Part shown: positions 31,424-56,553 of the stretch, piece after piece
Numbering within the stretch: the first letter of the stretch is position 1
How the letters are laid out: each line of letters starts with the position of its first letter
NCBI GenBank assembly: GCA_016000265.1
Contig: JAECRL010000001.1
Span: forward strand, 62,001-126,000
Length of the DNA: 64,000 nt
Direction of reading: 5' to 3'
Origin: Burkholderiales bacterium
Lineage (GTDB): Bacteria > Pseudomonadota > Gammaproteobacteria > Burkholderiales > Burkholderiaceae_C
Program-made: the position numbers and the translations under genes
Notes under the pieces: model-generated
What the model was told of the DNA's origin: nothing
Database searches by the model: none
The model's input: the letters and a program-made list of their open reading frames with translations, nothing else

Positions 31424-31554
31424 GGCTCGAACCTTAAGCAGGGGCGCGCGCCACGGGAAGCGCCTTTTTCGCATGTGAGGCTGCGGCTTGTGGATACCGG
31501 CGGGCCACCGGGGCGTTCATGCACAAAGCGAACATGACCATGCAAAAGCGGTCG

Positions 31555-31583
31555 TTGTCGCTTGAGGGGGGCGTGGCTATCGT
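31555..31583 (+). promoter_or_regulatory. Candidate sigma-70 promoter of the XRE-cupin / sigma-54 activator operon
   Basis: TTGTCG at 31555-31560 and TATCGT at 31578-31583 are 17 bases apart, the optimal spacing. Each box has four matches to consensus. The predicted start near 31590 leaves a leader of about 34 bases before the ATG at 31624. No other clear promoter is seen in this 200-base divergent region. Confidence 0.4.
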
Positions 31584-31623
31584 GTGCAGGCTCAGTCACA
31601 ACGACCATTCAGAGGACGCCCAC

Positions 31624-33698: not shown

Positions 33699-34724
33699 TC
33701 ACTTCTTGGTGTAGATCTGGTCGAACTGACCGCCGTCCGAGAAGTGCGTCTTCTGGGCCTTGGCCCAGCCGCCGAAGACGTCGTCGATCTTGACCAGCTC
33801 CAGCTTGGGGAACTGCTTGGCGTACTTGGCTGCGGCCTTGGCGTCCGTCGGGCGGTAGAAGTGCTTGCCGGCCAGGTCCTGGCCTTCGGCGCTGTAGAGG
33901 TACTCGATGTAGGCCTTGGCCACGTCGCGGGTGCCGCGCTTGTCGACGACCTTGTCCACGATGGCCACGGGCGGCTCAGCATAGATCGAGAACTTCGGGT
34001 AGACGATGTCGAACTTCTCGGCGCCGAACTCCTTGAGCGACAGGTGGGCTTCGTTTTCCCAGGCCAGCAGCACGTCGCCTTGGCCGCGTTCAGCGAAGGT
34101 CACGGTGGAGCCGCGGGCACCGGAGTCGAGCACGGGCACGTTCTCGAACAGCTTGCCGACGAAGGCCTTGGCCTTGTCTTCGGAGCTGGTCTTCTTGAGC
34201 TCGTAGGCCCAGGCGGCCAGGTAGTTCCAGCGGGCGCCACCGGAGGTCTTGGGGTTGGGGGTGATGACGCCCACGCCCGGCTTGATCAGGTCAGACCAGT
34301 CTTTGATCTGCTTGGGGTTGCCCTTGCGAACCAGGAAGACGATGGTCGAGGTGTAGGGCGAGCTGTTGCCCTTGAAGCCCTTTTGCCAGTCGGTCTTGAG
34401 CAGGCCCTTCTCGGCGATGGCGTCGATGTCATAGGCCAGGGCCAGGGTGACGACGTCGGCGTCCAGGCCGTCGATCACGGAGCGGGCTTGCTTGCCCGAG
34501 CCGCCGTGCGAGGCTTTGACGGTGACGTTGTCGCCGGTCTTGGCCTTCCAGAACTTGGCGAAGGCGCCGTTGTACTCGGAGTAGAACTCGCGGGTCGGGT
34601 CATACGACACGTTGAGCAGCGAGATGTCCTTGGCGTGCGCGACGCCGCTCAGGCCACCCAGGGCCACGACGGCGGCCAGGGCGAGGGAGGAAATGGCGCG
34701 ACGGGAGAAGGTCTTGTTCGTCAT
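33699..34724 (-). CDS. sbp: Periplasmic sulfate/thiosulfate-binding protein
   Basis: A 341-residue solute-binding protein of the Sbp/CysP family. The Sec signal ends with GVAHA before [17 protein letters not shown], the standard start of the mature protein. Conserved ligand-site segments are [35 protein letters not shown], and [19 protein letters not shown]. It would deliver sulfate to a CysTWA-type ABC transporter, whose genes are not seen here. It is the last gene of the minus-strand operon, but a 29-base box and a -10-like element upstream suggest it also has its own promoter. A terminator follows. Function is confident at the family level; sulfate versus thiosulfate cannot be told. Confidence 0.94.
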
Positions 34725-34821: not shown

Positions 34822-35595
34822 TCACCAGGTGGGGGTGGGGGCTGCGGGCGCTTGGGTGCCGGTTGCCGGGGCCGCTGGAGGTGGGGACGCGATCCACGCG
34901 CCGCTGGCCCACCACACCGCGGCCGCGGCCAGGGCGAGGGCCAGCACCCCGGCCAGGGTGCGCCGCCAGCGGGTGCCGCCACTCAGGTCGGGGGCCTGGG
35001 CGGCTTGCTCGGGGGGCAGCCGCTTCCAGCCCGTCACCATCGGGGGCACCAGCGGGTCGCGCTTGACGATGGCGTGGAATGCGATGGCCGCCAGGTGCAG
35101 TCCGATGAGTCCGTACAGGCCGTTGATGAGCCAGCGGTGCCAGCCGGTCCACGCGCTGACCTGCTCTTCGCTCAACAACGGCGCGAGCGGCCCGCTGAAA
35201 GCGATGTCGTCGTTGCTGAACAGCCCCGTGCCCACTTGCGCCCCCAGCAGCGTCAGCAAGGCGATGACCGACAGCGCCCCCAGGGGGTTGTGGCCGATGC
35301 CGTGCCAGCGACCTTGCAGGTAGGCCTTCACACGCGCGGGCGTGGGCAGGAAGTGGCTGAAGCGCGAGGTGGGCGAGCCCACCAGGCCCCAGGCCAGGCG
35401 AAACGCCAGCAGGCCCACGATGGCCAGGCCAGCGCGTGCATGCCAGGTCATCCAGTCGCCGCCCGCCAGGCCCGTGGCGATGGCCGTGGCCACGGCGGCC
35501 AGCAGCAATCCATGAAAGATGCGCAGCGGGGCGTCCCACACGCGCACGCGCACGGTGGGGGTTTGTCGCGCGTCGGGTTCAGCTGCCACAGCCAT
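34822..35595 (-). CDS. Cytochrome b561-family membrane protein
   Basis: A 257-residue inner-membrane b-type cytochrome. Four core helices carry the likely heme ligands: RIFHGLLLAAVATAIATGLA, MTWHARAGLAIVGLLAFRLAW, IGHNPLGALSVIALLTLLG and WLINGLYGLIGLHLAAIAFH. A fifth hydrophobic segment (AGVLALALAAAAVWWASGAW) and a Pro/Ala tail follow. Members of this group carry electrons between quinones or periplasmic partners; partner and direction are unknown here. It lies 33 bases after the rhodanese-like gene and before sbp, so it belongs to the same minus-strand operon as the ABC transporter. Finding it here hints that the imported or periplasmic compound undergoes redox chemistry. Confidence 0.85.
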   Translation of the reverse strand: MAVAAEPDARQTPTVRVRVWDAPLRIFHGLLLAAVATAIATGLAGGDWMTWHARAGLAIVGLLAFRLAWGLVGSPTSRFSHFLPTPARVKAYLQGRWHGIGHNPLGALSVIALLTLLGAQVGTGLFSNDDIAFSGPLAPLLSEEQVSAWTGWHRWLINGLYGLIGLHLAAIAFHAIVKRDPLVPPMVTGWKRLPPEQAAQAPDLSGGTRWRRTLAGVLALALAAAAVWWASGAWIASPPPAAPATGTQAPAAPTPTW

Positions 35596-35628: not shown

Positions 35629-36159
35629 TCAGTTCGCGGCAGGGGCCGGGGCCGCCGCCGGGGCGGTGGCGGTGCGCACCGGCGGCGTCACCTTGATGAT
35701 GGTGCCGCCGGCCTCGCGGTAGTCCTCCGAGCCCAGGGCGCCCGCCACTTTGAACCCCTTGCTGGAGAGCAAGTCGCCCGCGACCCCGCCGCGGTGGGCG
35801 CGGTTGGAGACCAGGATGATCTGGCGGTCGCGCGGGATGTAGTCCAGCGCCTGGGGCAGGTCCTTGAGCTGGATGTTGAGGTACACGGGCAGGCTGCCGT
35901 ACTTGCTGAGCTCATCGGGCCGGCGCACGTCGATCACGAGCAGCTTCTTGGGGTTGCCCAGCAGCTTGTCGACGTCGTTGCGGCTGAGTTGCCTGGTCTG
36001 GTAGGTCCAGGGGCGGGGGACGTAGGCGGTGGCCGCGGGTTCGGCCGCCGATGCCGCAGCAGCGGGGGTGGCCGGGGCGCCTTGGGAGAGGGCCACCGAG
36101 GTGGAGGCAGCCAGGCTGGACAGCAGGACGAGGGCGACGATGTGTTGACGGGAAGACAT
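35629..36159 (-). CDS. Exported rhodanese-fold protein lacking the catalytic cysteine
   Basis: A 176-residue exported protein: a signal peptide (HIVALVLLSSLAASTSVALS), an Ala/Pro linker, and one rhodanese domain at about 60-150 (LSRNDVDKLLGNPKKLLVID, then VRRPDELSKYGSLPVYLNIQ and LPQALDYIPRDRQIILVSN). In active rhodaneses the last strand is followed by the Cys of C-x-x-G-x-R. Here the loop reads VSNRAHRGGVAG, and the entire protein has no Cys. Persulfide transfer is therefore not possible in the usual way; a binding or structural role is more likely. It sits between the ABC ATPase gene and the cytochrome b561 gene, in one operon. Confidence 0.8.
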   Translation of the reverse strand: MSSRQHIVALVLLSSLAASTSVALSQGAPATPAAAASAAEPAATAYVPRPWTYQTRQLSRNDVDKLLGNPKKLLVIDVRRPDELSKYGSLPVYLNIQLKDLPQALDYIPRDRQIILVSNRAHRGGVAGDLLSSKGFKVAGALGSEDYREAGGTIIKVTPPVRTATAPAAAPAPAAN

Positions 36160-36202: not shown

Positions 36203-37015
36203 TCAAGCGGCCAGCGGGTCGCTGACGCGCGCCAGCCGCTCGGCCACGGTGGCGTGGTTGATCTCGTGGCTGAACTCGCTGAGCACGTCGTCCTTGATGG
36301 CGGTGAAGTCCGCGCTCACGCGGTCGCGCGGGCGCGCCAGGGGCACGTCGACGATGCGTTTGATGCGACCGGGGCGCGGCTCCATCACCACGATGCGGTC
36401 ACCCAGGTAGACGGCTTCTTCGACGTCGTGGGTGACGAGGATGGCGGTGATGCCTTCGGCTTGCCAGATGCGCTGCAGCTCCTGTTGCAGGCGCGTGCGG
36501 GTCAGGGCGTCGAGCGCGCCGAAGGGCTCGTCGAGCAGCAGCACCTCGGGGCGGTTGACCAGCGCGCGCGCGATGGCCACGCGCTGCGACATGCCCCCGG
36601 AGAGCTGATGCGGGTGGGCCTTCTCGAAGCCCTTGAGGCCCACCAGCTCGATGTGTTCCTTGACGCTGCGGTCCTTCGCGGAGGGCGAGCCGGGGGCGTT
36701 GAGCAGGCCCAGGGCCACGTTCTGCTCCACCGTCAGCCAGGGGAAGAGGCGGTGTTCCTGGAAGACGATGCCGCGCTCCAGGCTGGTGCCGCGGATGGGC
36801 TGGCCGTCCAGCAGCAGTTGCCCTTCGTAGCCGCTCTCCAGCCCGATGAGCAGGCGCAGCAGCGTGGACTTGCCGCAGCCGCTGGAGCCCACGATGCTGA
36901 TGAACTCGCCAGGCCGTATGGACAGGTTGATGTCTTGCAGCACCTTCAGGGGCTGGCCCTTGACGTCGTACTGCTTGTGGAGGTGCTGGATGTCGATGGT
37001 GCCGGCTTGGGGCAT
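36203..37015 (-). CDS. ABC transporter ATPase, sulfonate/nitrate/taurine type
   Basis: A 270-residue nucleotide-binding subunit. Walker [19 protein letters not shown]-loop [17 protein letters not shown], signature [15 protein letters not shown], Walker [17 protein letters not shown] and the switch His in LVTHDVEEA are all intact. The Q-loop form and [12 protein letters not shown] are typical of the SsuB/TauB/NrtD group. It energises import of a small anion from the periplasm together with the two permeases upstream. It lies 45 bases after the second permease gene. Confidence 0.93.
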
Positions 37016-37060: not shown

Positions 37061-37873
37061 TCAGCGATGGGCGGGGGCGCGCCAGCTCAGCAGCCGCGCT
37101 TCGGCCACGGCGGCCAGGCGGTTGAAGGCGTTGCCCACCAGGCCGATGGCGACCAGGCCGAAGAGGATCAGCTCGATGTTGAAAGCCATGCGACCCTTGA
37201 AGACGATGTTGCCCAGGCCGTGCCCGTCGTTGACGAGCAGGAACTCGGCGCCGATGGTGGCCAGCCAGGCGCAGATCAGGCCCAGTCGCAGGCCACCGAT
37301 GACCTGCGGCGAGGCCGCAGGCAGCACCAGCCGAAACAGGGTCTGGCGCCAGGTGAAGCCGCACACGCGGGCGACCTCGGCGTGCGCCTGGCTCACGCCG
37401 CGCACGCCCTCCAGCGTGCCCAGCACCACCGGGTAGAACGCCGAGAAGGCGATGAAGATGACCTTGGAGAGGTCGCCCGTGCCCACCAGCGCCGACAGCA
37501 GCGGCAGCCAGGCGAACAGCGAGATCTGGCGCGCGGTGTGAAAGGTCGGGCCCAGCAGCCGGTCGGCCAGGCGCGAGACGCCGATCAGCACCCCCACGGC
37601 CACGCCGGCCAGGGCGCCCAGGGTGAAGCCGGCGAGGTCGCGCCACAGGCTCAGGCCGATGCCGGCGTAGAAATCGGGCTGGGCCAGCTCGGCCCAGGCG
37701 GTGGTGAGCACGCCCCAGGGCGGCACGATGAGCCGGGTGTTGACCAGGTTCAAGGCGGTCACGGCGTACCAGGCGGCGAGCAGCAGCGCGGGCAGCACCA
37801 GGCCGCGCAGGTCGGGGCGGCGGCGATCGGGGGAGGACCCAGGGGTGGGCGCAGGGGGCGTGGAAGCGGACAT
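37061..37873 (-). CDS. ABC transporter permease, sulfonate type (second permease)
   Basis: A 270-residue inner-membrane permease of the SsuC/TauC family, with six hydrophobic segments. The EAA-like loop that docks the ATPase is at about 160-195 (LEGVRGVSQAHAEVARVCG, then RLVLPAASPQVIGGLRLGL). The motif ARQISLFAWLPLLSALVGTG is also characteristic. Two different permeases in one operon suggest a heterodimeric channel. No RNA or second start problem was noticed. Confidence 0.9.
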   Translation of the reverse strand: MSASTPPAPTPGSSPDRRRPDLRGLVLPALLLAAWYAVTALNLVNTRLIVPPWGVLTTAWAELAQPDFYAGIGLSLWRDLAGFTLGALAGVAVGVLIGVSRLADRLLGPTFHTARQISLFAWLPLLSALVGTGDLSKVIFIAFSAFYPVVLGTLEGVRGVSQAHAEVARVCGFTWRQTLFRLVLPAASPQVIGGLRLGLICAWLATIGAEFLLVNDGHGLGNIVFKGRMAFNIELILFGLVAIGLVGNAFNRLAAVAEARLLSWRAPAHR

Positions 37874-37907: not shown

Positions 37908-38807
37908 TCAGAAGGCGTTGCGGCGCCAGCCTTGCAGGCGTGACTCGATCAGGCGCAGGCCCAGCTCGATGAGGATGCCGACCACGCCGATGGCGAACAT
38001 GGCCACGATCACCATGTCGATCTGGCTGAGCGAGCGGCTGTAGGCCATCAGGAAGCCCAGGCCTTCGCTGGAGGACAGCAGCTCCACGAAGATGACCGAC
38101 AACCACGCCTGCATCACGCCCTGGCGCAGGCCCGTGAACAGGGCGGGCGTGGCGGCGGGCAGCACGATGCGCGTGAGCGTCTGCCAGCCCGTGAAGCGGT
38201 GGACGCGGCCCACCTCCAGCAGCGTCGAGGGGATGTTGGCGATGCCGTTGAGCGTGCTCAGCGCCACCGGCACGACCACCGCGATGGACACCGCCGAGAC
38301 CTTCAACGGCTCCTCGATGCCCACGAAGATGATGAGCAGCGGGATCCAGCCCAGCACGGGCAGTTGGGCCAGCACGTCGAAGGTGGGGAAGACGTAGGCC
38401 TTGAAGGTGCGCGACAGGCCCATGCCGAAGCCCAGCACCAGGCCTGCCGAGCCGCCGATCAACAGGCTCCAGGCCACGCGCTTGGCGCTGAAGACCACGT
38501 GGCCCCACAGCTCGCCGGTGTCCAGCACGATGAGCAGCGACTCCCAGACGAAAGCCGGTGAGGGCAGGATCTGCTCGGCGATCCAGCCGCGATCGGCGGT
38601 CAGCCACCACAGCCCGAAGATCAGCGAGGGCAGCAAGGCACCCAGCAGCACGGTGGTGGCCGCCGAGGTGAGTGAGGACCCCGCGGCGCGCAGGCGCTGG
38701 GAGGAGGGGGGCACCGGGGTCGCAGGCCGTTGTGCCAGGCCAGTCGATGGGGTCGACGCCGTGGCGGCAGGGGGAAAGATCTCGATGTCGTCGGCTGAAA
38801 CGGCCAT
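37908..38807 (-). CDS. ABC transporter permease, sulfonate type (first permease)
   Basis: A 299-residue permease of the SsuC/TauC family with an unconserved Pro/Ser-rich cytoplasmic N-terminus of about 45 residues. Six membrane segments follow. LAQLPVLGWIPLLIIFVGIE and the docking loop LNGIANIPSTLLEVGRVH, then RIVLPAATPALFTGLRQG, are diagnostic. It differs from the second permease in sequence throughout, so this is not a recent duplication. It lies 74 bases after the substrate-binding protein gene and 34 bases before the second permease gene. Confidence 0.9.
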   Translation of the reverse strand: MAVSADDIEIFPPAATASTPSTGLAQRPATPVPPSSQRLRAAGSSLTSAATTVLLGALLPSLIFGLWWLTADRGWIAEQILPSPAFVWESLLIVLDTGELWGHVVFSAKRVAWSLLIGGSAGLVLGFGMGLSRTFKAYVFPTFDVLAQLPVLGWIPLLIIFVGIEEPLKVSAVSIAVVVPVALSTLNGIANIPSTLLEVGRVHRFTGWQTLTRIVLPAATPALFTGLRQGVMQAWLSVIFVELLSSSEGLGFLMAYSRSLSQIDMVIVAMFAIGVVGILIELGLRLIESRLQGWRRNAF

Positions 38808-38881: not shown

Positions 38882-39979
38882 TCAGGTCCGGGTGTACTTG
38901 CCGTTGGCGTCCTGGGTCGGCCAGAAGGCCTCCAGCTTCTGGTCGGCCAGGGCCTTGTTGAGGTACTTGCGCTCGATCCAGCCCTCGATGCTCACGTCGC
39001 GGCGGATCAGGCGGTGCTTCTTGATCTCGTCGATGGAGCGCTGGATGGACGCCAGGTAGTAGTCGTCGAGCAGCGGGTTCTGGCGCGTGCGCAGGTCTTT
39101 GGTGCGGTCCCACACGCGCTTGTTGTCGACGTAGGTGTTCACGCCCGAGCGCGTCCACAGCTGGTACTGGGTCTCGCGATTGGCCTCCTGGGTGCTCCAG
39201 TGCGCGACCTTGACCAAGCGGTTGACGATGCGCTGGACCAGGTCGGGGTGCTTTTGCTCGAAGGCCTCGCCCACCCAGACCGTGCCGGGGCGGTTGATGA
39301 TGGCGTCGTCGTAGATCTCCGACAGGCGCTTGGCCACACCGCGTGCTTCCAGGCCGAAGGGCGTCTCGATGGCGCCGGCGATGTCGCCGGTGGACAGCGA
39401 GGCCACGCGGTCGTCGCGGATCTGGCTGATGATGCGGAACTGCTTTTCGGGTTCGGTGAAACCGCTCTTCTCCAGGAAGCGGTACATCGTCAGCTGGCCG
39501 GCGGTGCCCTTTTGCACCGACAGGGTCTTGCCCTGCAGGTCGGCCACGGTCTTGGCCGTGGAGGTGGCGGGCGTGATGAAGTAGATGTCACCGCCGCGGC
39601 CCGAGGACAGGATGATCTTGTGCTTGAGGCCCGTGGAGCGGCCCACGATCAGGGGCAGGTCGCCGTGGCCGAAGCAGAAGTCCAGCAAGCCGTTGGCGAA
39701 CGCCTCGTTGAGTGCGGGGCCGGCGCCCACGTAGTACTTCCATTCGATCTTGATGCCGTCTGCGGCGAACTCTTGTTCCAGTTCGTTGCGAAACACGGTG
39801 TTGGCTGTGAAACCGGTGGAGGGCAAGGGGCGACCGCCCGTGCCGGCGCCGGGGAAGCCGATGCGGATGGTGGCCGGTTTGTCGCCGGCTTGTGCGAAGG
39901 CGCTGCCGGTGCTCAGGCCGATGAGGGCGGGGGCCGCCAGCCCGGAGGCCAGCAGGGAATTGAATGAACGACGCTTCAT
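38882..39979 (-). CDS. ABC transporter substrate-binding protein, SsuA/NMT1-like
   Basis: A 365-residue periplasmic binding protein of the sulfonate/nitrate/taurine (SsuA, NMT1/THI5-like) superfamily. A signal with Arg pair (MKRRSFNSLLASGLAAPALI) suggests Tat or Sec export, ending near GSAFA. Core segments are TIRIGFPGAGTGGRP, FANGLLDFCFGHGDLPLIVG, and VADLQGKTLSVQKGTAGQLT. Sequence alone does not fix the ligand: sulfonates, sulfate esters or related anions are the natural candidates given the neighbours (sbp, sigma-54 activator, rhodanese fold). It stands between the porin and permease genes. Confidence 0.88.
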   Translation of the reverse strand: MKRRSFNSLLASGLAAPALIGLSTGSAFAQAGDKPATIRIGFPGAGTGGRPLPSTGFTANTVFRNELEQEFAADGIKIEWKYYVGAGPALNEAFANGLLDFCFGHGDLPLIVGRSTGLKHKIILSSGRGGDIYFITPATSTAKTVADLQGKTLSVQKGTAGQLTMYRFLEKSGFTEPEKQFRIISQIRDDRVASLSTGDIAGAIETPFGLEARGVAKRLSEIYDDAIINRPGTVWVGEAFEQKHPDLVQRIVNRLVKVAHWSTQEANRETQYQLWTRSGVNTYVDNKRVWDRTKDLRTRQNPLLDDYYLASIQRSIDEIKKHRLIRRDVSIEGWIERKYLNKALADQKLEAFWPTQDANGKYTRT

Positions 39980-40030: not shown

Positions 40031-41533
40031 TCAGAAGCCGGCGACGAACTGGGCCTGGATGCCGTTGGTGCGCTTGGGGCTGGCCAGCGTGCTCAGGCCG
40101 GCGGTCTGGTTGCGGCCCTTGAAGTAGTTGATCTGGAAGCGCGTGGTCTCTGCGAAGAACACGTTCAGCCCCAGGGTGGTCAGGAACTGGCGGTCTTTGG
40201 TGGCGCGCTGGTTGCGATCGGGGTCGAAGGTGTCCACGCGCAGGAAGGCCTGGTAGGACAGCGGCCAGAAGTCGTCGAACTTGCCCTGTTGCTTGGAGCT
40301 GTTGAGGAACTGCTCGCCCCAGGTGTAGCCCAGGTTGATGTACTGACCCACACCGCGCTTGAAGCCGTCGGGGTGGGTGGCCGTGACGCTGGCCTGCTCG
40401 TCTTTGCCGTAGGCCCATTCGTAGGACACGGAGTAGGGCAGGTGCGTCCAGTTCACGTCGAAGCCGGTGCGGCTGCTCTCGCCGCGGCGCCCCACGGCCG
40501 TGGTGCCGATGGTGGGAAAGCGCTTGGTGTACGACGCCCCGATCTGCAGCTGGCGCAGCCAGCTCGTGTAGTCCACCGGCAGGGTGTAGACGACGCGACC
40601 GATCCAGTCGCGCATGGCGTTGTTGTCGCTCTTGTTGGGGCCGTTGCCGTTGAAGAAGCCCAGCGAGTAGCCCAGCAGCGGCGCGCGGTAGTTGTTGGTG
40701 AAGTCGACGTAGGGGTCGTAGTCACCCGAGACCAGCAAGCCGACCTGGCGCTGGTCGAGGCCCAGGCCGGTCACGAACAGCGCGTTGTTGATGACGGCGC
40801 GCACTTCCGGGTCGAGCGCGGGTGCGTCCAGGCCGAAGGGCACGGCCTGCTGGCCCAGGGTGATGGTGCCCAGGCGGTCTTCGAGGTTGCCCGTGGCCGG
40901 CTCGAAGCTGTAGCGCACGAAGGCGTTGGTCAGGTTGACCTGGGAGTTGTTGCTCGCGTTGGTGCCGGTGGTGCCGATGCTCAGGCCCAGCTGGTAGGTG
41001 AGGTTGCGGCCTTCGGCGTAGTCCCGGTAGAGGTTGCCCGCGAAGCTCAGCGTGCCGGTGGGCGCGCGAAAGCCGTTCTTGCGCGCCTCGGCGGGCGTGG
41101 CGGCGGCGGCGGCCGTGGTCTGGCTGTCGCCCGGTGCGAACGCGGGGCTGCGACTCTGGTAGCCCAGCGTCAGGGTGCCGGCGATGCGGGTGTTGCGCAG
41201 CACGCTGGGGATGTTGCGCTCTTGCAGGCGCGACTGGTCGTACTTGTAGTTCTCCAGGTCCGTGCGCAGGCCCTGGATGTCGGCCTTGGTGGCGGAGGTG
41301 CGTGCATCGAGGGCTTCTTGCGACTCTTCTTGTGCGCCTTCCGGGCTGGCGGTGGCCGCGGGCGCGCCGGGCGCCGGCTTGAGCAGCGAGCGCAGGTCTT
41401 CCACCTGGCGGCGCAACTCCTCCACGGTGTTCTTCAGCGCCTTGACTTCGTCACTGGACTGGGCGTGAACGCTGGCGCCCGAGATCGCGATCAGGGCGGC
41501 CAGCGCCAGTTGTGTTTTTCTTGGAAATAGCAC
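40031..41533 (-). CDS. OprP/OprO-type outer-membrane porin with N-terminal coiled coil
   Basis: A 500-residue outer-membrane porin. The signal peptide ends at SVHAQ; a coiled coil follows (EVKALKNTVEELRRQVEDL, about 28-50), then a beta-barrel ending in the typical C-terminal phenylalanine (QAQFVAGF). The coiled coil and barrel layout resemble the phosphate-selective OprP/OprO family, whose members trimerise and admit anions. Being first in an operon with an ABC importer, it probably admits the importer's substrate through the outer membrane. A sigma-54 promoter lies 52 bases upstream of the start codon, so this gene and those after it are expected to be switched on by an enhancer-binding protein. 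Confidence 0.85.
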   Translation of the reverse strand: MLFPRKTQLALAALIAISGASVHAQSSDEVKALKNTVEELRRQVEDLRSLLKPAPGAPAATASPEGAQEESQEALDARTSATKADIQGLRTDLENYKYDQSRLQERNIPSVLRNTRIAGTLTLGYQSRSPAFAPGDSQTTAAAAATPAEARKNGFRAPTGTLSFAGNLYRDYAEGRNLTYQLGLSIGTTGTNASNNSQVNLTNAFVRYSFEPATGNLEDRLGTITLGQQAVPFGLDAPALDPEVRAVINNALFVTGLGLDQRQVGLLVSGDYDPYVDFTNNYRAPLLGYSLGFFNGNGPNKSDNNAMRDWIGRVVYTLPVDYTSWLRQLQIGASYTKRFPTIGTTAVGRRGESSRTGFDVNWTHLPYSVSYEWAYGKDEQASVTATHPDGFKRGVGQYINLGYTWGEQFLNSSKQQGKFDDFWPLSYQAFLRVDTFDPDRNQRATKDRQFLTTLGLNVFFAETTRFQINYFKGRNQTAGLSTLASPKRTNGIQAQFVAGF

Positions 41534-41584: not shown

Positions 41585-41600
41585 TGCAGACTTTGTGCCA
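41585..41600 (-). promoter_or_regulatory. Sigma-54 (-24/-12) promoter of the porin-ABC operon
   Basis: On the minus strand TGGCACAAAGTCTGCA fits the consensus TGGCAC-N5-TTGCA with one mismatch. The invariant GG and GC are exactly 10 bases apart. Transcription would start near 41574, giving a leader of about 40 bases before the porin ATG at 41533. Confidence 0.75.
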
Positions 41601-41788: not shown

Positions 41789-41897
41789 GCGTTTAAGTGG
41801 CGAATTTTTGGCGGCACGAAAAGCTGGCGCGATGATTGCTTATCAGTGCCCCGTCCCGGTCCCGCATGGGTGGGTCCGGATTCGATGTGCATGGGTT

Positions 41898-41913
41898 TGG
41901 CAGGTTTTCTGCA
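41898..41913 (+). promoter_or_regulatory. Sigma-54 (-24/-12) promoter of the DUF1549-cytochrome operon
   Basis: TGGCAGGTTTTCTGCA keeps the invariant GG and GC 10 bases apart and differs from TGGCAC-N5-TTGCA at two positions. It shares the form CTGCA in the -12 box with the divergent promoter. The start of transcription near 41924 would give a leader of about 70 bases. Confidence 0.65.
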
Positions 41914-41995
41914 CATCAATATGCGCTGACCTGATATTCACGCAAAACGAGCAAGCAAATGAATACTTCGAATTTCGCAAATGGAGGCCATCGCC

Positions 41996-44335
41996 ATGAA
42001 TAACTCCTGGTATTTGCCGGCCCTGTTCGGTGTGCTGACGGTGGTGGCTCAGGCTGCCGAAGTGGCCGCACCCAGGGCGGTCGAGCCCACCCGCGCGACC
42101 GCGTCGCGCTGGTCCCCCTATCAACCCGTGAAGGCGCCGGCTGCGCCCGAGGTCAAGCAAAAGGGCTGGGTGCGCTCGTCCATCGACGGCCACGTGCTGG
42201 CCCAGATCGAAGCCAGCGGCCTCAAGCCTTCGCCCGAGGCCGATCGCGCCACCTTCATCCGCCGCGCCACCCTGGACGCCTGGGGCCTGCTGCCCACGCC
42301 CGAGGACATCAAGGCCTTCGTCAACGACAAGTCGCCCAACGCCCACGAGAAGCTGGTGGATCGCCTGCTGGCCTCGCATCACTTCGGTGAGCGCCAGGCG
42401 CGCCGCTGGCTCGACCTGGCCCGCTACGCCGACAGCACGGGCTTTCAGAACGACAACACGCGGCCCAACAACTGGCGCTACCGCGACTACGTCATCAACG
42501 CCTTCAACCAGGACAAGCCCTTCACGCGCTTCATCCAGGAGCAGATCGCGGGCGATGAGCTGTGGCCCGACAGCCAGGAGGCGCGCATCGCCACGGGCTT
42601 CCTGGCCGGCTACCCGGACAACTTCAACTCGCGCGACCTGGTGCAACGCAAGTACCAGATCGAGACCGACATGACCGACCTGGTGGGCGAGACCTTCCTC
42701 TCCAGCACCATCGGCTGCGCCCGCTGCCACAACCACAAGGCCGACCGCGTCAGCCAGAAGGAGTACTTCCAGCTGCAGGCCTTCTTCGCCAACACCGCGT
42801 TCAACGAGAAGGCGCCGCTGGCCAAGGGCACCGAGAGCGAGCACGACCAGGCGTTCCTCAAGCAGCAGGCCATCTACCAGGAGGCCACCAAGGACATCCG
42901 CGCCAAGCAAAAGGCCATCCTGGACAAGGTGCGTGACGCCGGTCGCAAGTACTACAACGAGCGCTACCTCGACGACAGCCGCGCCGCCATCTTCAAGCCC
43001 GAAGCCGAGTGGACGCCACTGGACAAGTGGGTCAACTGGCGCAAGCAGGCCGTGGCCTCGGACAACGAGATCATTTCCTACCTGCGCGACACCGCCGAGG
43101 AGAAGACCCGCCCCGACCACAACGAGGCGCACGTCGAACTGTGGACCCAGTTCAAGGCCCTGCGTGAGGAGCTCAAGCAGTTCGACAAGCTGCGTCCGGC
43201 CAAGGGCAGCACCTGGCTGACGACCGCCTTCGAGCTGACCAGCCAGGATGTGCCGGCGACCCACGTGCGCTTCGGTGGCATCCACGAGCGCCCGCTGGAG
43301 GCCGTCAAACCCGCCATCCCCGCGCTGTGGGGCGGCAAGGGCGAGGTGGCCATCACGCCGACGGAGAAGTCATCGGGCCGCCGCACCGCGCTGGCTCAGT
43401 GGTTGAGCAGCGACAGCAACCCGCTGACCGCCCGCGTCTACGTCAACCGCGTGTGGGCTCAGTACTTCGACAAGGGCATCATCCCGACGGTGGCTGATTT
43501 CGGTCGCGCCGGCCAGAAGCCGACCCACCCGGAGCTGCTCGACCACCTGGCCTCGCGCTTCGTGCAAAACGGCTGGAGCGTCAAGAAGCTGCACCGCGAG
43601 ATCCTGCTGTCGGCCACCTACCGTCAGGCCTCCGACGAGCGGGTCGACGTGGCCAAAGCCGACCCGGAAAACAAGCTGCTGGCGGTCTACCCGCGCAAGC
43701 GCCTGGAGGCCGAGGTGATCCGCGACTCGCTGCTGTACGCATCGGGCCTGCTGGTCGACAAGGTGGGGGGCCCCTCGGTGTTCCCGCCGGTGCTCAAGAC
43801 GGGTGACGTGGGCAAGTCGCAGGACTTCGCCGGCAACCGCGCCTGGACCGTCTCGGAGAACAAAGAAGACTGGCACCGCCGCAGCATCTACGTGTTCACG
43901 CGCCGCAGCTTCCCGTATCCGATCACGCAGAACTTCGACCCCGCCAACCCGAACAACCCGCACCACAAGCGTGACGTGACCACCACGCCGCTGCAGGCGC
44001 TGACCCTTTTCAACAGCGAGATCGTCTTCGACTGGAGCCAGGCGCTGGCCGGTCGCGTCATCAACGAGGCGGGCCACAGCGAAGACGCGCAGCTCAACCG
44101 GGTGTACGAAATCCTGTTTGCGCGCCAGCCCAACAAGACCGAGCGCGCCGCGCTCAAGGGCTTCCTGGCCGAGCAGCAGATCGCCATCCGTCAGAAAGCC
44201 GCCAGCGGCAAGTTCGAGGTGGCCGTGCCGCACGGCCTGAAGGACACCAAGGGCTACGACCCGGTGCGATCGGCCGCCTTCGTGGACCTGGTGCACACGG
44301 TGGCGAACTCCAATGACTTCGCCTACCGCTTCTGA
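41996..44335 (+). CDS. Exported DUF1549/DUF1553 protein with c-type heme motif (planctomycete-type)
   Basis: A 779-residue exported protein. The signal peptide (NSWYLPALFGVLTVVAQAAE) is followed by a DUF1549 domain at about 60-270, with FIRRATLDAWGLLPTPEDI, ARRWLDLARYADSTGFQND and ETFLSSTIGCARCHNHK, where C-A-R-C-H is a heme c attachment site. After a helical linker comes DUF1553 at about 460-740 (SNPLTARVYVNRVWAQYFDK, then ILLSATYRQ and PRKRLEAEVIRDSLLYASG). These domains are numerous in Planctomycetes and have no established activity; they are rare in beta-proteobacteria. GGAGG lies 8 bases before the ATG at 41996, so that start is preferred over the ATG at 41981. First gene of a seven-gene operon. 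Confidence 0.88.
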   Translation: MNNSWYLPALFGVLTVVAQAAEVAAPRAVEPTRATASRWSPYQPVKAPAAPEVKQKGWVRSSIDGHVLAQIEASGLKPSPEADRATFIRRATLDAWGLLPTPEDIKAFVNDKSPNAHEKLVDRLLASHHFGERQARRWLDLARYADSTGFQNDNTRPNNWRYRDYVINAFNQDKPFTRFIQEQIAGDELWPDSQEARIATGFLAGYPDNFNSRDLVQRKYQIETDMTDLVGETFLSSTIGCARCHNHKADRVSQKEYFQLQAFFANTAFNEKAPLAKGTESEHDQAFLKQQAIYQEATKDIRAKQKAILDKVRDAGRKYYNERYLDDSRAAIFKPEAEWTPLDKWVNWRKQAVASDNEIISYLRDTAEEKTRPDHNEAHVELWTQFKALREELKQFDKLRPAKGSTWLTTAFELTSQDVPATHVRFGGIHERPLEAVKPAIPALWGGKGEVAITPTEKSSGRRTALAQWLSSDSNPLTARVYVNRVWAQYFDKGIIPTVADFGRAGQKPTHPELLDHLASRFVQNGWSVKKLHREILLSATYRQASDERVDVAKADPENKLLAVYPRKRLEAEVIRDSLLYASGLLVDKVGGPSVFPPVLKTGDVGKSQDFAGNRAWTVSENKEDWHRRSIYVFTRRSFPYPITQNFDPANPNNPHHKRDVTTTPLQALTLFNSEIVFDWSQALAGRVINEAGHSEDAQLNRVYEILFARQPNKTERAALKGFLAEQQIAIRQKAASGKFEVAVPHGLKDTKGYDPVRSAAFVDLVHTVANSNDFAYRF

Positions 44336-44389
44336 GTCCCTCGAGGTTCACCCCCCATCCCATTCGACACACAGACCCAAGGAATCAAC

Positions 44390-45841
44390 ATGAGCAACGA
44401 TCAACGCCGTGCCTTCTTGCGCAACGCCGGCATCGGCCTGGGCGGCGCCGCCCTCGGCGGCTTCATCCCCGGCATCGGCCACATCAACGCCGCGACGGCC
44501 GCCGAGCTGGTGGACCCGCTGGCCACCAAGGCCCCGCATTTTCCCGGCAAGATCAAGTCGGTGATCTGGCTGCATCAAAACGGCGCCCCCTCGACGCTGG
44601 ACCTCTACGACCACAAGCCCACGCTGGAGAAGCTCGCCGGCCAGCCCGTGCCCGAGTCCTTCCTCAAGGGCATCAAGACCAGCACCCAGGGTGGCGTGGG
44701 CAAGCTCTATGCGTCCAACCAGCGCACCTGGAAGCAGCACGGTGAAAGCGGTGCCTGGTTCTCCAACCTGCTGCCCAACCTGGCCCAGCACGCCGACAAG
44801 CTGACCTTCATCAAGTCCAGCACCACCGTGGGCGCCACCCACGACATCTCCATCCTCAAGCTCAACACCGGCGACCTCAACCCCGGCCGTCCGTCGCTGG
44901 GCGCCTGGATCACCCACGCGCTGGGCTCGGCCAACCCCGACCTGCCGGCCTACGTGGTGCTCTACAACGGCGACCGCGAGCCGTCGGCCGGCTCCGTCAA
45001 CTGGTCGTCGGGCTTCCTGCCCGCGGTCTACCAGGGCACGGCCTTCCGCCCCGGTGACTCCCCCATCCTGTACCTCAACCGCCCGGACGTGCGCAGCGCC
45101 GTGCAGCAGCGCACCTCGCTGGACCTGCTCAAGCGCCTGAACCTGCTGGGCGCGCAGCGCCACCCGCAAGACACCGAGCTGCGCGCGCGCCTGCAGTCTT
45201 ACGAGCTGGCCGACCGCATGCAGACCGCCGCGCCAGCCGCCGTGGACATCACCCAGGAAAGCGCCGCCACCAAGGAGCTGTACGGCCTCAACGACAAGAC
45301 CAGCCAGAGCTATGGCGAGGTGCTGCTGCGCGCGCGCCGCCTGGTCGAGCGTGGCGTGCGCTTCGTGCAGGTGGTCTCCGGGTTCCCCGAAGGCGCCGAC
45401 ATCGATCGCCAGAGCTGGGACGCCCACAGCGAGCTGGACCAGAACCACGCCGTCATGGCCCGCATGGTGGACAAGCCCATCGCCGGCTTGCTGCATGACC
45501 TCAAGGAAAGCGGCCTGCTGGAGACCACCCTGGTGGTGTGGACCTCCGAGTTCTCGCGCACCTCCTGGGGCGAGAGCGGCAGCGGCCGCGACCACAACCC
45601 CTGGGGCTACACGCAGTGGCTGGCCGGCGGCGGCCTCAAGGCCGGTTTCACCTACGGTGAGACCGACGACATCGGCCTGCAGGTGGCCGACAAGGAAAAG
45701 GCCGTTGACACCTACGACCTGCACGCCACCGTGCTGCACCTGATGGGCCTGGACCACCTCAAGACCACCTTCATCCACAACGGCCGCTCCGAGCGCCCGA
45801 CCGTGGTGTACGGCAAGGTCGTCAAGGACATCCTGGCCTGA
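44390..45841 (+). CDS. Tat-exported DUF1501 protein (alkaline-phosphatase/sulfatase-like fold)
   Basis: A 483-residue protein of the DUF1501 family, which is distantly related to the alkaline phosphatase/sulfatase superfamily. The N-terminus has a twin-arginine signal, QRRAFLRNAGIGLGGAALGG. Family segments: VIWLHQNGAPSTLDLYDHKP near 60, ATHDISILKLNTGDLNPGRP, LVERGVRFVQVVSG, DAHSELDQNHAVMARMVDKP, and TLVVWTSEFSRTSWG with GRDHNPWGYTQW. The His/Asp-rich motifs suit a metal site. Tat export means it folds, probably with metal, before leaving the cytoplasm. DUF1549/DUF1553 and DUF1501 genes are standard neighbours in Planctomycetes, which supports a joint function; it follows its partner by 54 bases here. 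Confidence 0.88.
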   Translation: MSNDQRRAFLRNAGIGLGGAALGGFIPGIGHINAATAAELVDPLATKAPHFPGKIKSVIWLHQNGAPSTLDLYDHKPTLEKLAGQPVPESFLKGIKTSTQGGVGKLYASNQRTWKQHGESGAWFSNLLPNLAQHADKLTFIKSSTTVGATHDISILKLNTGDLNPGRPSLGAWITHALGSANPDLPAYVVLYNGDREPSAGSVNWSSGFLPAVYQGTAFRPGDSPILYLNRPDVRSAVQQRTSLDLLKRLNLLGAQRHPQDTELRARLQSYELADRMQTAAPAAVDITQESAATKELYGLNDKTSQSYGEVLLRARRLVERGVRFVQVVSGFPEGADIDRQSWDAHSELDQNHAVMARMVDKPIAGLLHDLKESGLLETTLVVWTSEFSRTSWGESGSGRDHNPWGYTQWLAGGGLKAGFTYGETDDIGLQVADKEKAVDTYDLHATVLHLMGLDHLKTTFIHNGRSERPTVVYGKVVKDILA

Positions 45842-45845
45842 CAGC

Positions 45846-46226
45846 ATGCGCAAGCTCCTCATCGTCATCGGGGTGCTGATGGTCTTCATGGGGGTCGTGC
45901 GAGCCGCAGATGGCGAGCTCGACATGGACCTCATGCAGACCATCGAGGACACCAACAAGAGCCTGGCCTCGAACATCGCCATGCAGAACGCCGCCGGCAG
46001 CACCGCCGACGCGCGCGAGCTGCACACGCTGTTCGTTCAAGTGGAGGCGCACTTCGTGGCCAAGGGCGATGCGCCCGACGCCGTGGACCTGTCGCGCAAA
46101 AGCAAGGACCTGGCCGAGGCCATCGTCAAGTCCGTGGGCGACAAGAACTTCGAGGCCGCGTCCAACTCGGCCACCGACCTCTCGCGTGCCTGCCGAACCT
46201 GCCACACCTTCTACAAGAAGTCCTGA
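45846..46226 (+). CDS. Small class II (c'/c556-like) cytochrome c
   Basis: A 126-residue periplasmic cytochrome. The signal peptide is LLIVIGVLMVFMGVVRAADG. The mature part is helical, and the single heme motif C-R-T-C-H is near the C-terminus (ACRTCHTFYKKS), the layout of class II cytochromes c. It starts 4 bases after the DUF1501 stop, so it is translated from the same message. It probably takes electrons from, or gives them to, the DUF1549/DUF1501 proteins. Confidence 0.85.
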   Translation: MRKLLIVIGVLMVFMGVVRAADGELDMDLMQTIEDTNKSLASNIAMQNAAGSTADARELHTLFVQVEAHFVAKGDAPDAVDLSRKSKDLAEAIVKSVGDKNFEAASNSATDLSRACRTCHTFYKKS

Positions 46227-46241
46227 GGTGAAAGGTCGGGT

Positions 46242-46934
46242 GTGAAGTCATCGTTGTTGAGCCTGTTCATGTGGTCTGCTTTCGTTTTCACCTCGCTGGC
46301 TGCGTTCTCGGCGCCCCCTTCCCGGGTGGCCAAGGGCGTCGCCAGAGACGTGTCCCCGATGGCGATGAAAAAGGGCGACCCCTTGCGGGGCCGCGAGCTC
46401 ATCGACTCGGAGCGCTGCATGGAGTGTCACGGGGTCGACGGCCAGGGGGCCGGTCACCCCAATGGCCCGGAGGGCAAGTTCGCCAAGCTCGCCGGGCAGC
46501 ACCCCGACTACCTCCTCAAACAGATCCGCGACTTCCGATCGGGTGCGCGCAAGCACGACCAGATGGCCATCATGGCCCGCAGCATCAGCGACGAGGACGT
46601 CATCGACATCGCGGCCCACTTCGCTTTGCAACCGGTGATGAAAGGCGAGCCTGGTCCGATCAACGAGCTCGGACAACGCCTGTACGAGCAAGGTGACGCC
46701 GCGCGCGGTGTGCCCGCTTGCGTGGCCTGCCACGGCCCCAACGGCAAGGGCGTGCCTGGCCTCACCTTGATGCCGCTGGTGGGGGGGCAGGAGTGGCGCT
46801 ACCTCGACAAGCAACTGCGGGACTGGCGCTCAGGCGAGCGCCGCAACGGCGCCGACGCGGGCATGAACCTGGCGGCTCGCAACCTCAGTGACGCCGACAT
46901 CGAGGCGCTGGCCAGCCACCTCGCGGCGCAGTGA
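46242..46934 (+). CDS. Diheme cytochrome c (c4-like)
   Basis: A 230-residue periplasmic cytochrome with two heme c motifs, ERCMECHGVDGQGAG near 60 and PACVACHGPNGKGVPG near 160. Each lies in a class I domain, and axial Met candidates are in HDQMAIMARSISDEDV and DAGMNLAARNLSDADI. The two-domain layout is that of cytochrome c4, which links periplasmic enzymes to terminal oxidases. The start is the GTG at 46242, preceded by AAAGG; the signal peptide follows directly (MKSSLLSLFMWSAFVFTSLA). It lies 15 bases after the c'-like gene. Confidence 0.9.
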   Translation: MKSSLLSLFMWSAFVFTSLAAFSAPPSRVAKGVARDVSPMAMKKGDPLRGRELIDSERCMECHGVDGQGAGHPNGPEGKFAKLAGQHPDYLLKQIRDFRSGARKHDQMAIMARSISDEDVIDIAAHFALQPVMKGEPGPINELGQRLYEQGDAARGVPACVACHGPNGKGVPGLTLMPLVGGQEWRYLDKQLRDWRSGERRNGADAGMNLAARNLSDADIEALASHLAAQ

Positions 46935-46987
46935 GGCCACGGATCGCTGCCTTTCTTTTTCCATCTTTTGAACATCACGGAGCCAAC

Positions 46988-47584
46988 ATGAAATCGTGGA
47001 TCGCCGCCAGCTTGCTGGCCGTCACCTCGGCGTGGATCGCCACGCCGGCTCACGCCGCCTTGAAAGAAGGCGACACCGCCCCCGACTTCAGGCTGCAGGC
47101 CTCGCAAGCCGGCAAGCCCTTCAACTACGCCATCAAGGACGCCCTCAAGAAAGGCCCCGTGGTCGTGTATTTCTACCCCTCGGCCTTCACCAGCGGCTGC
47201 AACATCCAGGCCCACCTGTTCGCGCAGAACGTCGAGAAGTTCGCCGCCGCGGGCGCCACCATCGTGGGCGTCTCGCTCGACAGCATCGCCCGGCTCAACG
47301 AGTTCTCGGCCGACCCGCAGTACTGCGCCGGCAAGATCCCCGTGGCCTCGGATGCCGACGGCAAGGTCGCGCGCGCCTTCGAGCTGCCCATCAACGAGAT
47401 CCCGGCGGGCCGCAAGGACACCCGCGGCGTCGAGATCGACCACGCCCGCACCGACCGCACCACCTTCATCGTCACGCCCGACGGGCGCATCGCGGCGACC
47501 GTCGGGGGCGTCACGCCCGACGTCAACGTGCTCAAGGCGCTGGAGATCGTGCAGGGCCTGGGCAGCAAGGCCCGCAAGTCCTGA
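46988..47584 (+). CDS. Exported peroxiredoxin (AhpC/TSA, Bcp-like)
   Basis: A 198-residue exported thioredoxin-fold peroxidase. A Sec signal (AVTSAWIATPAHAALK) precedes GDTAPDFRLQASQAGKPF. The peroxidatic Cys is in VVYFYPSAFTSGCNIQAHLF (normally P-x-x-x-T-x-x-C), and a second Cys in ADPQYCAGKIP may resolve it. The frame extends 19 codons upstream, but ATG 46988 follows GGAG and begins the signal. Periplasmic peroxiredoxins reduce hydrogen peroxide or organic peroxides; here it may protect against a by-product of the redox enzymes in the operon. A reductant could be the DsbD-like protein encoded at 61-63 kb. Confidence 0.88.
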   Translation: MKSWIAASLLAVTSAWIATPAHAALKEGDTAPDFRLQASQAGKPFNYAIKDALKKGPVVVYFYPSAFTSGCNIQAHLFAQNVEKFAAAGATIVGVSLDSIARLNEFSADPQYCAGKIPVASDADGKVARAFELPINEIPAGRKDTRGVEIDHARTDRTTFIVTPDGRIAATVGGVTPDVNVLKALEIVQGLGSKARKS

Positions 47585-47645
47585 TCGTCGTTTCCTTCGC
47601 TCGTTCTTTTCTCCCCACCACGCAACCCCAACCCAAGGTCATCGC

Positions 47646-48122
47646 ATGAAATCGATCCTCAAACCCGTCGCCGCCACGGTGCTGGCGGCGGCCGCCCTGG
47701 CCGCGGCCAGCGCGTCTTTTGCCCAGCAGGCGCCCAAGCCCGAGCAGCTCATCAAGTGGCGTCAGTCGGCCTACCAGGTGCTGGCCTGGAACACCGGCCG
47801 CGTCAAGGCCAACGTGGACGGCACCTACAACAAGGACGACGTGATCAAGGCGTCCAACGCCATCGCCGCCATCGCCAACTCCGGTCTGGGTGCGCTGTAC
47901 GCACCCGGCACCGAGACGGGCAAGGGCTGGCGTGAAACCACCGTCAAGCCCGAGCTGTTCACCGACAAGAAGGCCGGCGAAGTGGCCGCTGCTTTCAACA
48001 AAGAAGCCAACGAGCTGGCCCGCGTGGCCGCCGTGGGCGACGTGGCCCAGGTCAAGGCCCAGCTGGCTAAGCTGCAAGGCACCTGCAAGGCGTGCCACGA
48101 CGACTTCCGCAAGAAGGACTGA
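47646..48122 (+). CDS. Cytochrome c' (class II)
   Basis: A 158-residue periplasmic four-helix cytochrome c'. The signal peptide ends at ASFAQ; the mature chain starts APKPEQLIKWRQSAYQVLAW, with the Arg/Lys pattern of the family, and ends with GTCKACHDDFRKKD, the C-terminal heme motif. Cytochromes c' bind NO and CO and may transfer electrons or detoxify. It has a 61-base gap after the peroxiredoxin gene and 9 bases before the lectin-like gene. It is not a duplicate of the 126-residue cytochrome earlier in the operon; length and helices differ. Confidence 0.92.
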   Translation: MKSILKPVAATVLAAAALAAASASFAQQAPKPEQLIKWRQSAYQVLAWNTGRVKANVDGTYNKDDVIKASNAIAAIANSGLGALYAPGTETGKGWRETTVKPELFTDKKAGEVAAAFNKEANELARVAAVGDVAQVKAQLAKLQGTCKACHDDFRKKD

Positions 48123-48131
48123 GCGCACACC

Positions 48132-48842
48132 ATGAACCACCGCAAGCAAACCTTCATCGCCTTGGCCTGGCTGGGCCTGTCGGGCGCCGCCCTGGCCCAG
48201 GCCACCACCGCCACCCCTCCGCCGGCCAACCGCGAAACCGGCCCGTTCAGCTTCTTCGTGACGAGCGTGGGCTCGGGCAAGGGCGCCGACCTCGGTGGGC
48301 TGGCGGGCGCCGATGCGCACTGCCAGAAGCTGGCGGCGGCCGTCGGTGCGGGCAACAAGACCTGGCGTGCCTACCTGAGCACCCAGTCCTGGGACGGCAA
48401 GCCAGCCGTGCACGCCCGCGACCGCATCGGCACGGGCCCCTGGTTCAACGTCAAGGGTGCCTTGATCGCCCGCAGCGTCAGCCACCTGCACGGTGACGAC
48501 CTGGAGGAGGCCCGCATCGGCAACGCCGTGAACTGGTCCACCGCGCTCACCGAGCAGGGGCAACCCGTCAAGCGAGCCGGTGACACGCCCAACGAGCACG
48601 ACATCCTCACCGGCTCCCAACCCGATGGCCGCGCCTTCGTCAACGACGTCTCCGACCGCACCTGCAAGAACTACACGAGCAGCGCCGAAGACGGTGCCGT
48701 GCAGGTGGGCCACTTCGACCGCACCGGCGGTGTGCACACGGCCCTGTCGTGGAACTCCGCCCATGCCAGCCGTGGCTGCAGCCAGCCCAAGCTCGTGAGC
48801 ACGGGCGGCGCGGGCTACTTCTATTGCTTCGCGGCCAAGTAA
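48132..48842 (+). CDS. Secreted lectin-like protein (DUF1554/endostatin-like fold)
   Basis: A 236-residue secreted protein. A signal peptide (ALAWLGLSGAALAQA) precedes FFVTSVGSGKGADLGGLAGA, DAHCQKLAAAVGAGNKTWRA and YLSTQ, a pattern seen in C-type-lectin-like secreted proteins of Planctomycetes, Myxobacteria and Leptospira. Four or more Cys (DAHCQKL, RTCKNYTS, SRGCSQPKL, YFYCFAAK) probably form disulfides. The DILTGSQPDGRAF segment is also recurrent in that group. It closes the operon and may bind a glycan or another surface ligand. Naming rests on pattern memory rather than a search. Confidence 0.7.
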   Translation: MNHRKQTFIALAWLGLSGAALAQATTATPPPANRETGPFSFFVTSVGSGKGADLGGLAGADAHCQKLAAAVGAGNKTWRAYLSTQSWDGKPAVHARDRIGTGPWFNVKGALIARSVSHLHGDDLEEARIGNAVNWSTALTEQGQPVKRAGDTPNEHDILTGSQPDGRAFVNDVSDRTCKNYTSSAEDGAVQVGHFDRTGGVHTALSWNSAHASRGCSQPKLVSTGGAGYFYCFAAK

Positions 48843-48950
48843 GGCCGCCCACCAGCGTCAAGTCCAGCGCCACCGACCCACGCGTGGCGGTGCGGGAGCC
48901 CGGTGACCCGCTCAGCCTGAGCCTGAGTCACCCCCGCCCATCGGCATAAG

Positions 48951-49004: not shown

Positions 49005-49035
49005 GCATCGCAGCACATCAACGTGGATTCAGGAC

Positions 49036-53778: not shown

Positions 53779-53783
53779 TCACC

Positions 53784-55650: not shown

Positions 55651-56553
<903 letters not shown>

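Follow-up and report, generated by a model that had tools for sequence, protein, structure and literature searches.

Proteins that join DUF1549 to DUF1553, the PSCyt2-PSD1 type, have been reported from Planctomycetes and Verrucomicrobia. Rhodopirellula baltica encodes 41 copies each of the two domains, and a redox role has been suggested for its PSCyt proteins, with no tested function named in the accessible part of that paper (PMC2754498). In Verrucomicrobia, PSCyt2 genes adjoin uncharacterised families, according to the available part of the study concerned (PMC5615132). Here we describe a seven-gene series at positions 41996-48842 of a 64 kb stretch of presumed Aquabacterium DNA (the window; contig C6, 62001-126000, of a 3.56 Mb genome that is 93% complete), which is built around a DUF1549/DUF1553 protein and a DUF1501 protein. 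The pair resembles the DUF1800-DUF1501 pairs tied to chitin synthases in some Proteobacteria in that a twin-arginine DUF1501 protein stands beside an uncharacterised partner, but the partner is a different one, and the accessible portion of that report does not mention a cytochrome (PMC5122149).

Two described sulfur systems provide the other points of comparison, the SsuEADCB sulfonate system and the SfnR/msu/sfn regulon of pseudomonads and Burkholderia. SfnR regulates the use of dimethyl sulfone, depends on sigma-54 and is itself under the control of CysB, as given in the accessible parts of two papers (PMC13352529, PMC8234197). For the Aquabacterium module we lean towards a periplasmic redox pathway, induced by sulfur starvation, that processes a sulfonate or a sulfate ester. 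The regulation and gene context are supported by sequence evidence, and we infer the induction, the substrate, the chemistry and the direction of electron flow. A literature search by title and abstract, with most subscription papers outside it, returned no paper on a proteobacterial DUF1549/DUF1501 module.

A conserved module of predicted heme proteins, DUF1501 and a peroxiredoxin

All seven frames of the series are open and follow the order DUF1549/DUF1553 putative heme protein, twin-arginine DUF1501 protein, class II-like cytochrome (cytochrome 3), cytochrome c4, peroxiredoxin, cytochrome c' and endostatin-like protein, with Pfam matches over cut-off for the two DUF proteins, cytochromes c4 and c' and the peroxiredoxin (Table 1). 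The intergenic gaps are 4, 9, 15, 53, 54 and 61 bases (the start of cytochrome c' being the ATG at 47646). An N-terminal hydrophobic stretch was found in 7/7 products by a hydropathy scan, the twin-arginine motif is in DUF1501, and CxxCH occurs in proteins 1, 3, 4 (two copies) and 6. The gene series and its operon-like spacing, proposed in a sequence-only reading of the window, are borne out, and the hydropathy scan and the twin-arginine motif support the export signals that the same reading gave to all seven products, one of them of the twin-arginine translocation (Tat) type.

The DUF1549/DUF1553 protein is assigned to the PSCyt2/PSD1 type by both domains and by a predicted C-x-x-C-H heme site. 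That site, already noticed in the sequence-only reading, is invariant (C241, C244 and H245 in 57/57 aligned sequences). Alignments were made from subsets of the sequences (A1, 15/21 DUF1549 available; A2, 16/21; A3, 16/21; A4, 14/19; A5, 15/21; and, with the window included, A6, 59/80, and A7, 57/82). When 57 DUF1549 proteins were placed in a tree, the 35 of the proteobacterial type formed one clade with a support of 1.0, and the other 22 are mostly acidobacterial. A metagenome-assembled genome of Bryobacterales (Acidobacteria; L074) has a copy inside the proteobacterial clade, 57% identical and accompanied by a cytochrome 3 match, which suggests gene transfer or a binning error.

The predicted fold of DUF1501 is of the alkaline-phosphatase superfamily/sulfatase type. 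The window protein shares this fold with the sulfatases, but it has no match to PF00884 in Pfam and lacks the C/S-x-P/A-x-R sulfatase signature; a scattered S-x-A-x-R occurs in 12/59 DUF1501 sequences. A role as a sulfatase was rejected on the absent signature and on the weakness of the sulfatase profile matches (E 0.013-0.02). His151 is invariant (59/59), a helix begins there, and this residue may occupy the place of the usual nucleophile.

Cytochrome 3, previously called c'-like, has no Pfam match; its CxxCH and Met30 are kept in 16/16 sequences, and a search with its profile gives weak matches to cytochromes c' (best E 0.0013). Protein 4 is a diheme c4-like cytochrome as had been read, being closest to cytochrome c4 (E 9e-32) and carrying its two CxxCH motifs. 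In the peroxiredoxin, PxxxTxxC and a second Cys are kept in 15/15 sequences. The label 'lectin-like' for protein 7 is weak, as its matches, to Endostatin and to DUF1554, both score below cut-off (Table 1).

In 20 loci from relatives, DUF1549, DUF1501, cytochrome 3 and the peroxiredoxin were present throughout, cytochromes c4 and c' in 19 each and protein 7 in 17; a rhodanese-like gene, which in the window lies outside the series, accompanied 18 of them and an SsuA gene 15. The c4-peroxiredoxin order was kept in 15 of these loci and swapped in four, and c4 was absent in one. Across 120 genomes (our own and 119 relatives), DUF1549 occurred in 21. All of these also have cytochrome 3, which G002 has as well (22), and the rhodanese-like protein, which both G002 and G049 have as well (23); G002 is assembled into 630 contigs, and the completeness of G049 is 65%. 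The rhodanese-like gene of G096 lies on a separate contig from DUF1549, so its tie to DUF1549 is more than adjacency. The module is a conserved unit, with DUF1549, cytochrome 3 and the rhodanese-like protein co-occurring across the 120 genomes.

The DUF1549 family is rare in the class at large, being over cut-off in one of 369 genomes (our own) and below it in three more, too few for an independent sample of its linkage. Proteobacteria that carry it mostly have one copy. Two tandem DUF1549-DUF1501 pairs were seen in the Zoogloea-type loci L047, L048, L049 and L058, where the first DUF1549 copy is 69-71% and the second 48-49% identical to the window's (the second DUF1501 of L058 is cut by the contig end). 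Two Paucibacter genomes (L060, L083) have two divergent module copies around a TonB-dependent receptor, and in L042 and L092 the DUF1549 frame is in two pieces, from assembly error or decay.

A scan of named genomes matched 593 stretches, 507 of them encoding a relative, and the best 80 of these represent 78 distinct loci. Neighbours were counted in 49 proteobacterial-type loci (mean 19.4 kb) and 28 outgroup loci (mean 17.6 kb); L043 was omitted as it is from the same assembly as L038, and L074 was counted with the outgroup. Cytochrome 3 lies near 42/49 proteobacterial-type loci. The sequence-only reading was to be abandoned if such pairs were never linked to cytochromes elsewhere, and they are so linked. 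Outgroup loci have DUF1501 near 26/28, and the module partners are absent from them save for one cytochrome 3 and one ExbB. The window protein is thus like the planctomycete and Verrucomicrobia PSCyt2-PSD1 proteins in its Pfam families, invariant heme site and DUF1501 neighbour, whereas the proteobacterial clade (35/57) differs from copies of that type in its dedicated cytochromes, peroxiredoxin, rhodanese-like protein and regulator.

Sigma-54-type sites, an SfnR-like activator and sulfur genes

Sites of the -24/-12 type face both DUF1549 and the divergent porin operon (Table 1), and sites of their score (9/10) occur only eight times on both strands of the whole 64 kb. Upstream of DUF1549, a site with at least 8/10 consensus positions was present in 53/73 regions, where composition shuffles lead one to expect 4.2. 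The count used 73 of 74 regions (L057 was too short) and included second copies; at least four assemblies were counted twice (L028/L090, L033/L059, L036/L044 and L038/L043), all with a site. The sigma-54 promoter that had been proposed ahead of the operon is in this way supported as a predicted, conserved site. No sigma-70-type promoter was found in a scan of 41500-49100, and an earlier sigma-54 pattern scan allowing two mismatches was uninformative, with 84 matches against 109 expected.

The window also encodes a sigma-54-dependent activator, whose AAA+ domain (PF00158) begins at residue 26, so that no sensor domain precedes it. Its plasmid homologues comprised 2478 matched records, and of 25 listed, four were opened, the top match H1 not among them. 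In 4/4, sfnG and/or msuE lie within about 6 kb: an annotated sfnG-msuE-SfnB group adjoins the homologue in L124, sfnG and msuE were located by tblastn in L128 and L129, and L123 has msuE only, at a distance of about 6 kb and separated from the homologue by insertion sequences. The window activator is judged SfnR-like because these opened homologues lie near sfnG and/or msuE; no SfnR model is among the best 25 of its 27 NCBIfam matches. Like the SfnR/msu/sfn regulon, the locus combines a sigma-54-type site, an activator of this form and an adjoining sulfate-binding protein (Sbp), but its putative target is a periplasmic heme system.

Sulfate-uptake, CysB, serine acetyltransferase, encapsulin or cysteine desulfurase genes were near 10/49 proteobacterial-type loci and an SfnR-like activator near 14; any such sulfur marker, the activator or SsuA was near 18/49 and near 0/28 outgroup loci. 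In L087 the module is followed by Sbp, one other frame, CysT, CysW, CysA and CysB-family genes. Three loci (L064:5735-9070, L065:13173-17327 and L052:4995-7915), one each from the alpha-, gamma- and betaproteobacteria, have a family 2A encapsulin near the module, together with serine acetyltransferase and a cysteine desulfurase match in L052, and as an SrpI-like shell with aminotransferase class V (cysteine desulfurase type) in L064 and L065; L080 has the aminotransferase only. SrpI, a family 2A encapsulin, goes up on sulfate starvation in Synechococcus, and its knockouts have no growth defect, according to the accessible part of that work (PMC8049743). Sulfur starvation of Pseudomonas aeruginosa raises the sfn regulators and a 1-Cys peroxiredoxin, and it raises Sbp marginally, as far as the available part of the report extends (PMC12581299).

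A possible route and its alternatives

In the route that we propose, sulfur starvation would lead the locus-encoded SfnR-like activator to turn on both divergent operons. One would import an organosulfur compound, through the porin and the SsuABC-type importer here and through a TonB-dependent receptor in other lineages, and the other would form a periplasmic redox chain. DUF1501, a Tat-exported putative metallo-protein, would bind an oxyanionic organosulfur substrate (a sulfonate or sulfate ester), and the c-type heme of DUF1549/DUF1553 would perform a redox step that loosens its sulfur. The class II and c4 cytochromes would be electron carriers, and the cytochrome b561 protein may link them to the quinone pool or a terminal oxidase. 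The peroxiredoxin would scavenge peroxide formed along the route, lactonase and dienelactone hydrolase (DLH), where present, would dispose of the carbon product, and Sbp would gather the released sulfate. The metal content of DUF1501 and the role of each cytochrome are what we infer.

Matches to PF00296 (Bac_luciferase; the SsuD/MsuD/SfnG family) and to PF02668 (TauD) both number zero in our own genome, an absence that is not final at 93% completeness, and the one PF00884 match is on another contig. In this the genome is unlike those of the SfnR/msu/sfn and SsuEADCB type. The SsuABC-type importer has no matching SsuD or TauD to release the sulfur, a step for which the periplasmic module is the candidate. 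The same absence would fit inward electron flow, in which quinol, via b561 (near 24/49 proteobacterial-type loci) and the cytochromes, would feed the DUF1549 heme and activate O2 or peroxide for a monooxygenase-like periplasmic C-S cleavage, with the peroxiredoxin guarding against leak. The role mostly known for cytochrome c4-like proteins is that of a donor to terminal oxidases, which favours outward flow, and Bac_luciferase genes are present in most of the module-bearing relatives tested; we consider inward flow doubtful. The undescribed, cytochrome-linked periplasmic redox operon of the sequence-only reading is supported, but its choice of oxidation over a reductive or oxygen-activating use of electrons is not.

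PF00296 is present in 24/41 genomes (our own and 40 relatives). A use of the module as a general replacement of SsuD-type desulfonases is unsupported, since PF00296 is present in 9/11 DUF1549-bearing relatives of the same genus. DUF1549/DUF1553-DUF1501 might be a periplasmic, c-heme-dependent organosulfur-cleaving enzyme, driven by cytochromes and not by flavin or 2-oxoglutarate, that works beside (or here replaces) the cytoplasmic desulfonases when freshwater Proteobacteria respond to sulfate starvation. We regard this as a possibility with the balance against it, rated slightly lower than at the outset because PF00296 is common in module-bearing relatives.

An SMP-30/gluconolactonase-like gene is near 15/49 and DLH near 14/49 proteobacterial-type loci; in several relatives a Tat-type DLH and the SMP-30-like gene lie between the peroxiredoxin and c', and the nearest solved structure to the SMP-30-like protein is an exported gluconolactonase. 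These genes point to the main rival, a periplasmic sugar or uronate dehydrogenase, in which DUF1549/DUF1501 would oxidise a carbohydrate to a lactone, the cytochromes would accept the electrons, the SMP-30 lactonase and DLH would open the lactone, and sulfur would come in through sulfated or sulfonated sugars. On a plasmid of Saccharobesus litoralis (L122), a TonB receptor, a LamG protein, a cytochrome c and a cytochrome b/b6-domain protein accompany the pair in a region of GH88 and pectate-lyase genes, and carbohydrate-binding modules occur in some Verrucomicrobia PSCyt genes (PMC5615132, accessible part). Neither lactonase nor DLH is universal, however, several beta families have the module in a sulfur-regulon context, and no sugar enzyme was found among the window proteins scanned, in which no search was aimed at glycoside hydrolases. 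A sugar-oxidising dehydrogenase is, in our estimate, unlikely, and it can be reconciled with the sulfur reading if the substrate is a sulfo-sugar.

A peroxiredoxin is near 41/49 loci, and antioxidant genes such as lsfA and ohr go up together with the sfn/msu genes when P. aeruginosa is starved of sulfur, in the accessible part of the report (PMC12581299). The module might accordingly protect sulfur-starved cells. On a failure of iron-sulfur assembly the peroxiredoxin and c' would deal with peroxide and NO, and DUF1549/DUF1501 would repair or shunt electrons, without any gain of sulfur. This would leave unexplained the dedicated importer or TonB receptor, the lactonase and DLH, and the sulfatase-type fold of DUF1501, and we regard it as very unlikely.

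Several observations weigh against the sulfur-processing reading itself. No sulfur, SfnR-like or SsuA marker is in the fetched flanks of 31/49 proteobacterial-type loci, and the outgroup, mostly acidobacterial and thus of another phylum, is an imperfect control for sulfur neighbours. No sulfur gene is listed at the Saccharobesus locus. As these pectin genes and the 31 markerless loci indicate, a sulfur role may fail in some lineages. A sigma-54-type site is absent from 20/73 upstream regions, mostly of alphaproteobacteria and methanotrophic gammaproteobacteria, and in the window the genes for Sbp, b561, the rhodanese-like protein, the activator, ccmA and DLH each lack one of their own. Among same-genus relatives, PF00296 is present in 9/11 genomes with DUF1549 against 5/13 without it, and the window's SsuA scores below its family cut-off (Table 1). 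Catalases and alkyl hydroperoxide reductases are slightly down in the P. aeruginosa study, in its accessible part (PMC12581299).

Surrounding genes and relevance

The gene set first delimited was incomplete: the regulator, the sulfate-binding protein, cytochrome b561, the rhodanese-like protein and the Tat-type hydrolase had been overlooked (Table 1). Near proteobacterial-type pairs (63 loci including the window), we counted a TonB-dependent receptor in 36, cytochrome b561 in 35, a sigma-54 activator in 25, SMP-30 in 21, DLH in 20, ExbB in 12 and a sulfate-binding protein in 11. A tie of the module to the divergent porin/ABC operon, which had been proposed as the importer of the substrate, is supported in the 20 loci from relatives, where SsuA and the rhodanese-like gene recur as given above, but the importer is not universal, since SsuA is near 3/49 and a TonB-dependent receptor near 33/49 proteobacterial-type loci. 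The SsuA-like binding protein, permeases and ATPase of the window are like those of the SsuEADCB system. The Ssu system has one SsuC permease, whereas the window has two permeases.

In the rhodanese-like family, Ser stands at the position that we take to be that of the catalytic Cys in the rhodanese active-site loop, in 37/37 members (the window's and 36 homologues). Given this Ser, the protein is, unlike a rhodanese, probably a binding protein and not a sulfurtransferase. A cytochrome c maturation (ccm) cluster at 48976-55634 lies directly 3' of the operon, and ccm genes are near the module also in L027, L044, L060 and L083. The window's own DLH is placed after the ccm genes.

Table 1. Positions and supporting matches of the module and of the genes and sites around it
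Feature	Position	Strand	Basis
HTH (XRE-type) regulator adjoining activator	31519..32361	+	HTH_3 5e-16; same family in two further genus loci, L030 and L044
SfnR-like sigma-54-dependent activator (predicted), without N-terminal sensor domain	32369..33589	+	PF00158 from residue 26
Sulfate-binding protein (Sbp)	33699..34724	-	NF008022 524.8 bits, cut-off 288
Cytochrome b561-type membrane protein	34822..35595	-	PF01292 78.7 bits
Exported rhodanese-like protein, Ser for catalytic Cys	35629..36159	-	PF00581
ABC ATPase, SsuABC-type importer	36203..37015	-	Also in relatives
ABC permease	37061..37873	-	Also in relatives
ABC permease	37908..38807	-	Also in relatives
SsuA-like substrate-binding protein	38882..39979	-	TIGR01728 94.4 bits, cut-off 163.5; nearest solved structure named SsuA, E 9e-34
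Porin-like protein (label by reading)	40031..41533	-	Found in relatives; no Pfam/NCBIfam match over cut-off
-24/-12-type site facing porin operon	41586..41600	-	9/10 positions
-24/-12-type site facing DUF1549	41825..41839	+	9/10 positions (one mismatch)
DUF1549/DUF1553 protein, one c-type heme site (C241-x-x-C-H)	41996..44335	+	Pfam: DUF1549 265 bits, DUF1553 307 bits
DUF1501, twin-arginine motif, alkaline-phosphatase-superfamily fold (predicted)	44390..45841	+	Pfam 432 bits
Small class II-like cytochrome (cytochrome 3), C-terminal CxxCH, invariant Met30	45846..46226	+	Profile match
Diheme cytochrome c4-like protein	46242..46934	+	Pfam Cytochrom_C, two stretches; similarity to solved c4
Exported peroxiredoxin, PxxxTxxC and second invariant Cys	46988..47584	+	Pfam AhpC-TSA
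Cytochrome c'	47646..48122	+	PF01322 (Cytochrom_C_2) 99.4 bits
Exported endostatin/DUF1554-like protein	48132..48842	+	Sub-threshold: Endostatin 21.3 bits, cut-off 29.4
Tat-type YghX-like dienelactone hydrolase (DLH)	55651..56553	+	PF01738 169.9 bits; inside operon in several relatives

To judge by its regulator, its promoter site and the genes around it, the module of the freshwater Aquabacterium may aid sulfur scavenging under scarce sulfate. The proteobacterial copies, mostly single, in an apparent defined regulon and with fixed partners, turn the function of the DUF1549-DUF1501 pair into a question that can be put to growth tests in species that can be cultured, among them Aquabacterium commune, whose strain DSM 11901 carries the module (L044). 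If the proposed reading is true, sulfur scavenging would gain a periplasmic heme branch that annotation has overlooked. Should the pair prove to be the c-heme-dependent organosulfur-cleaving enzyme considered above, two protein families present in tens of copies in planctomycetes would receive their first function.

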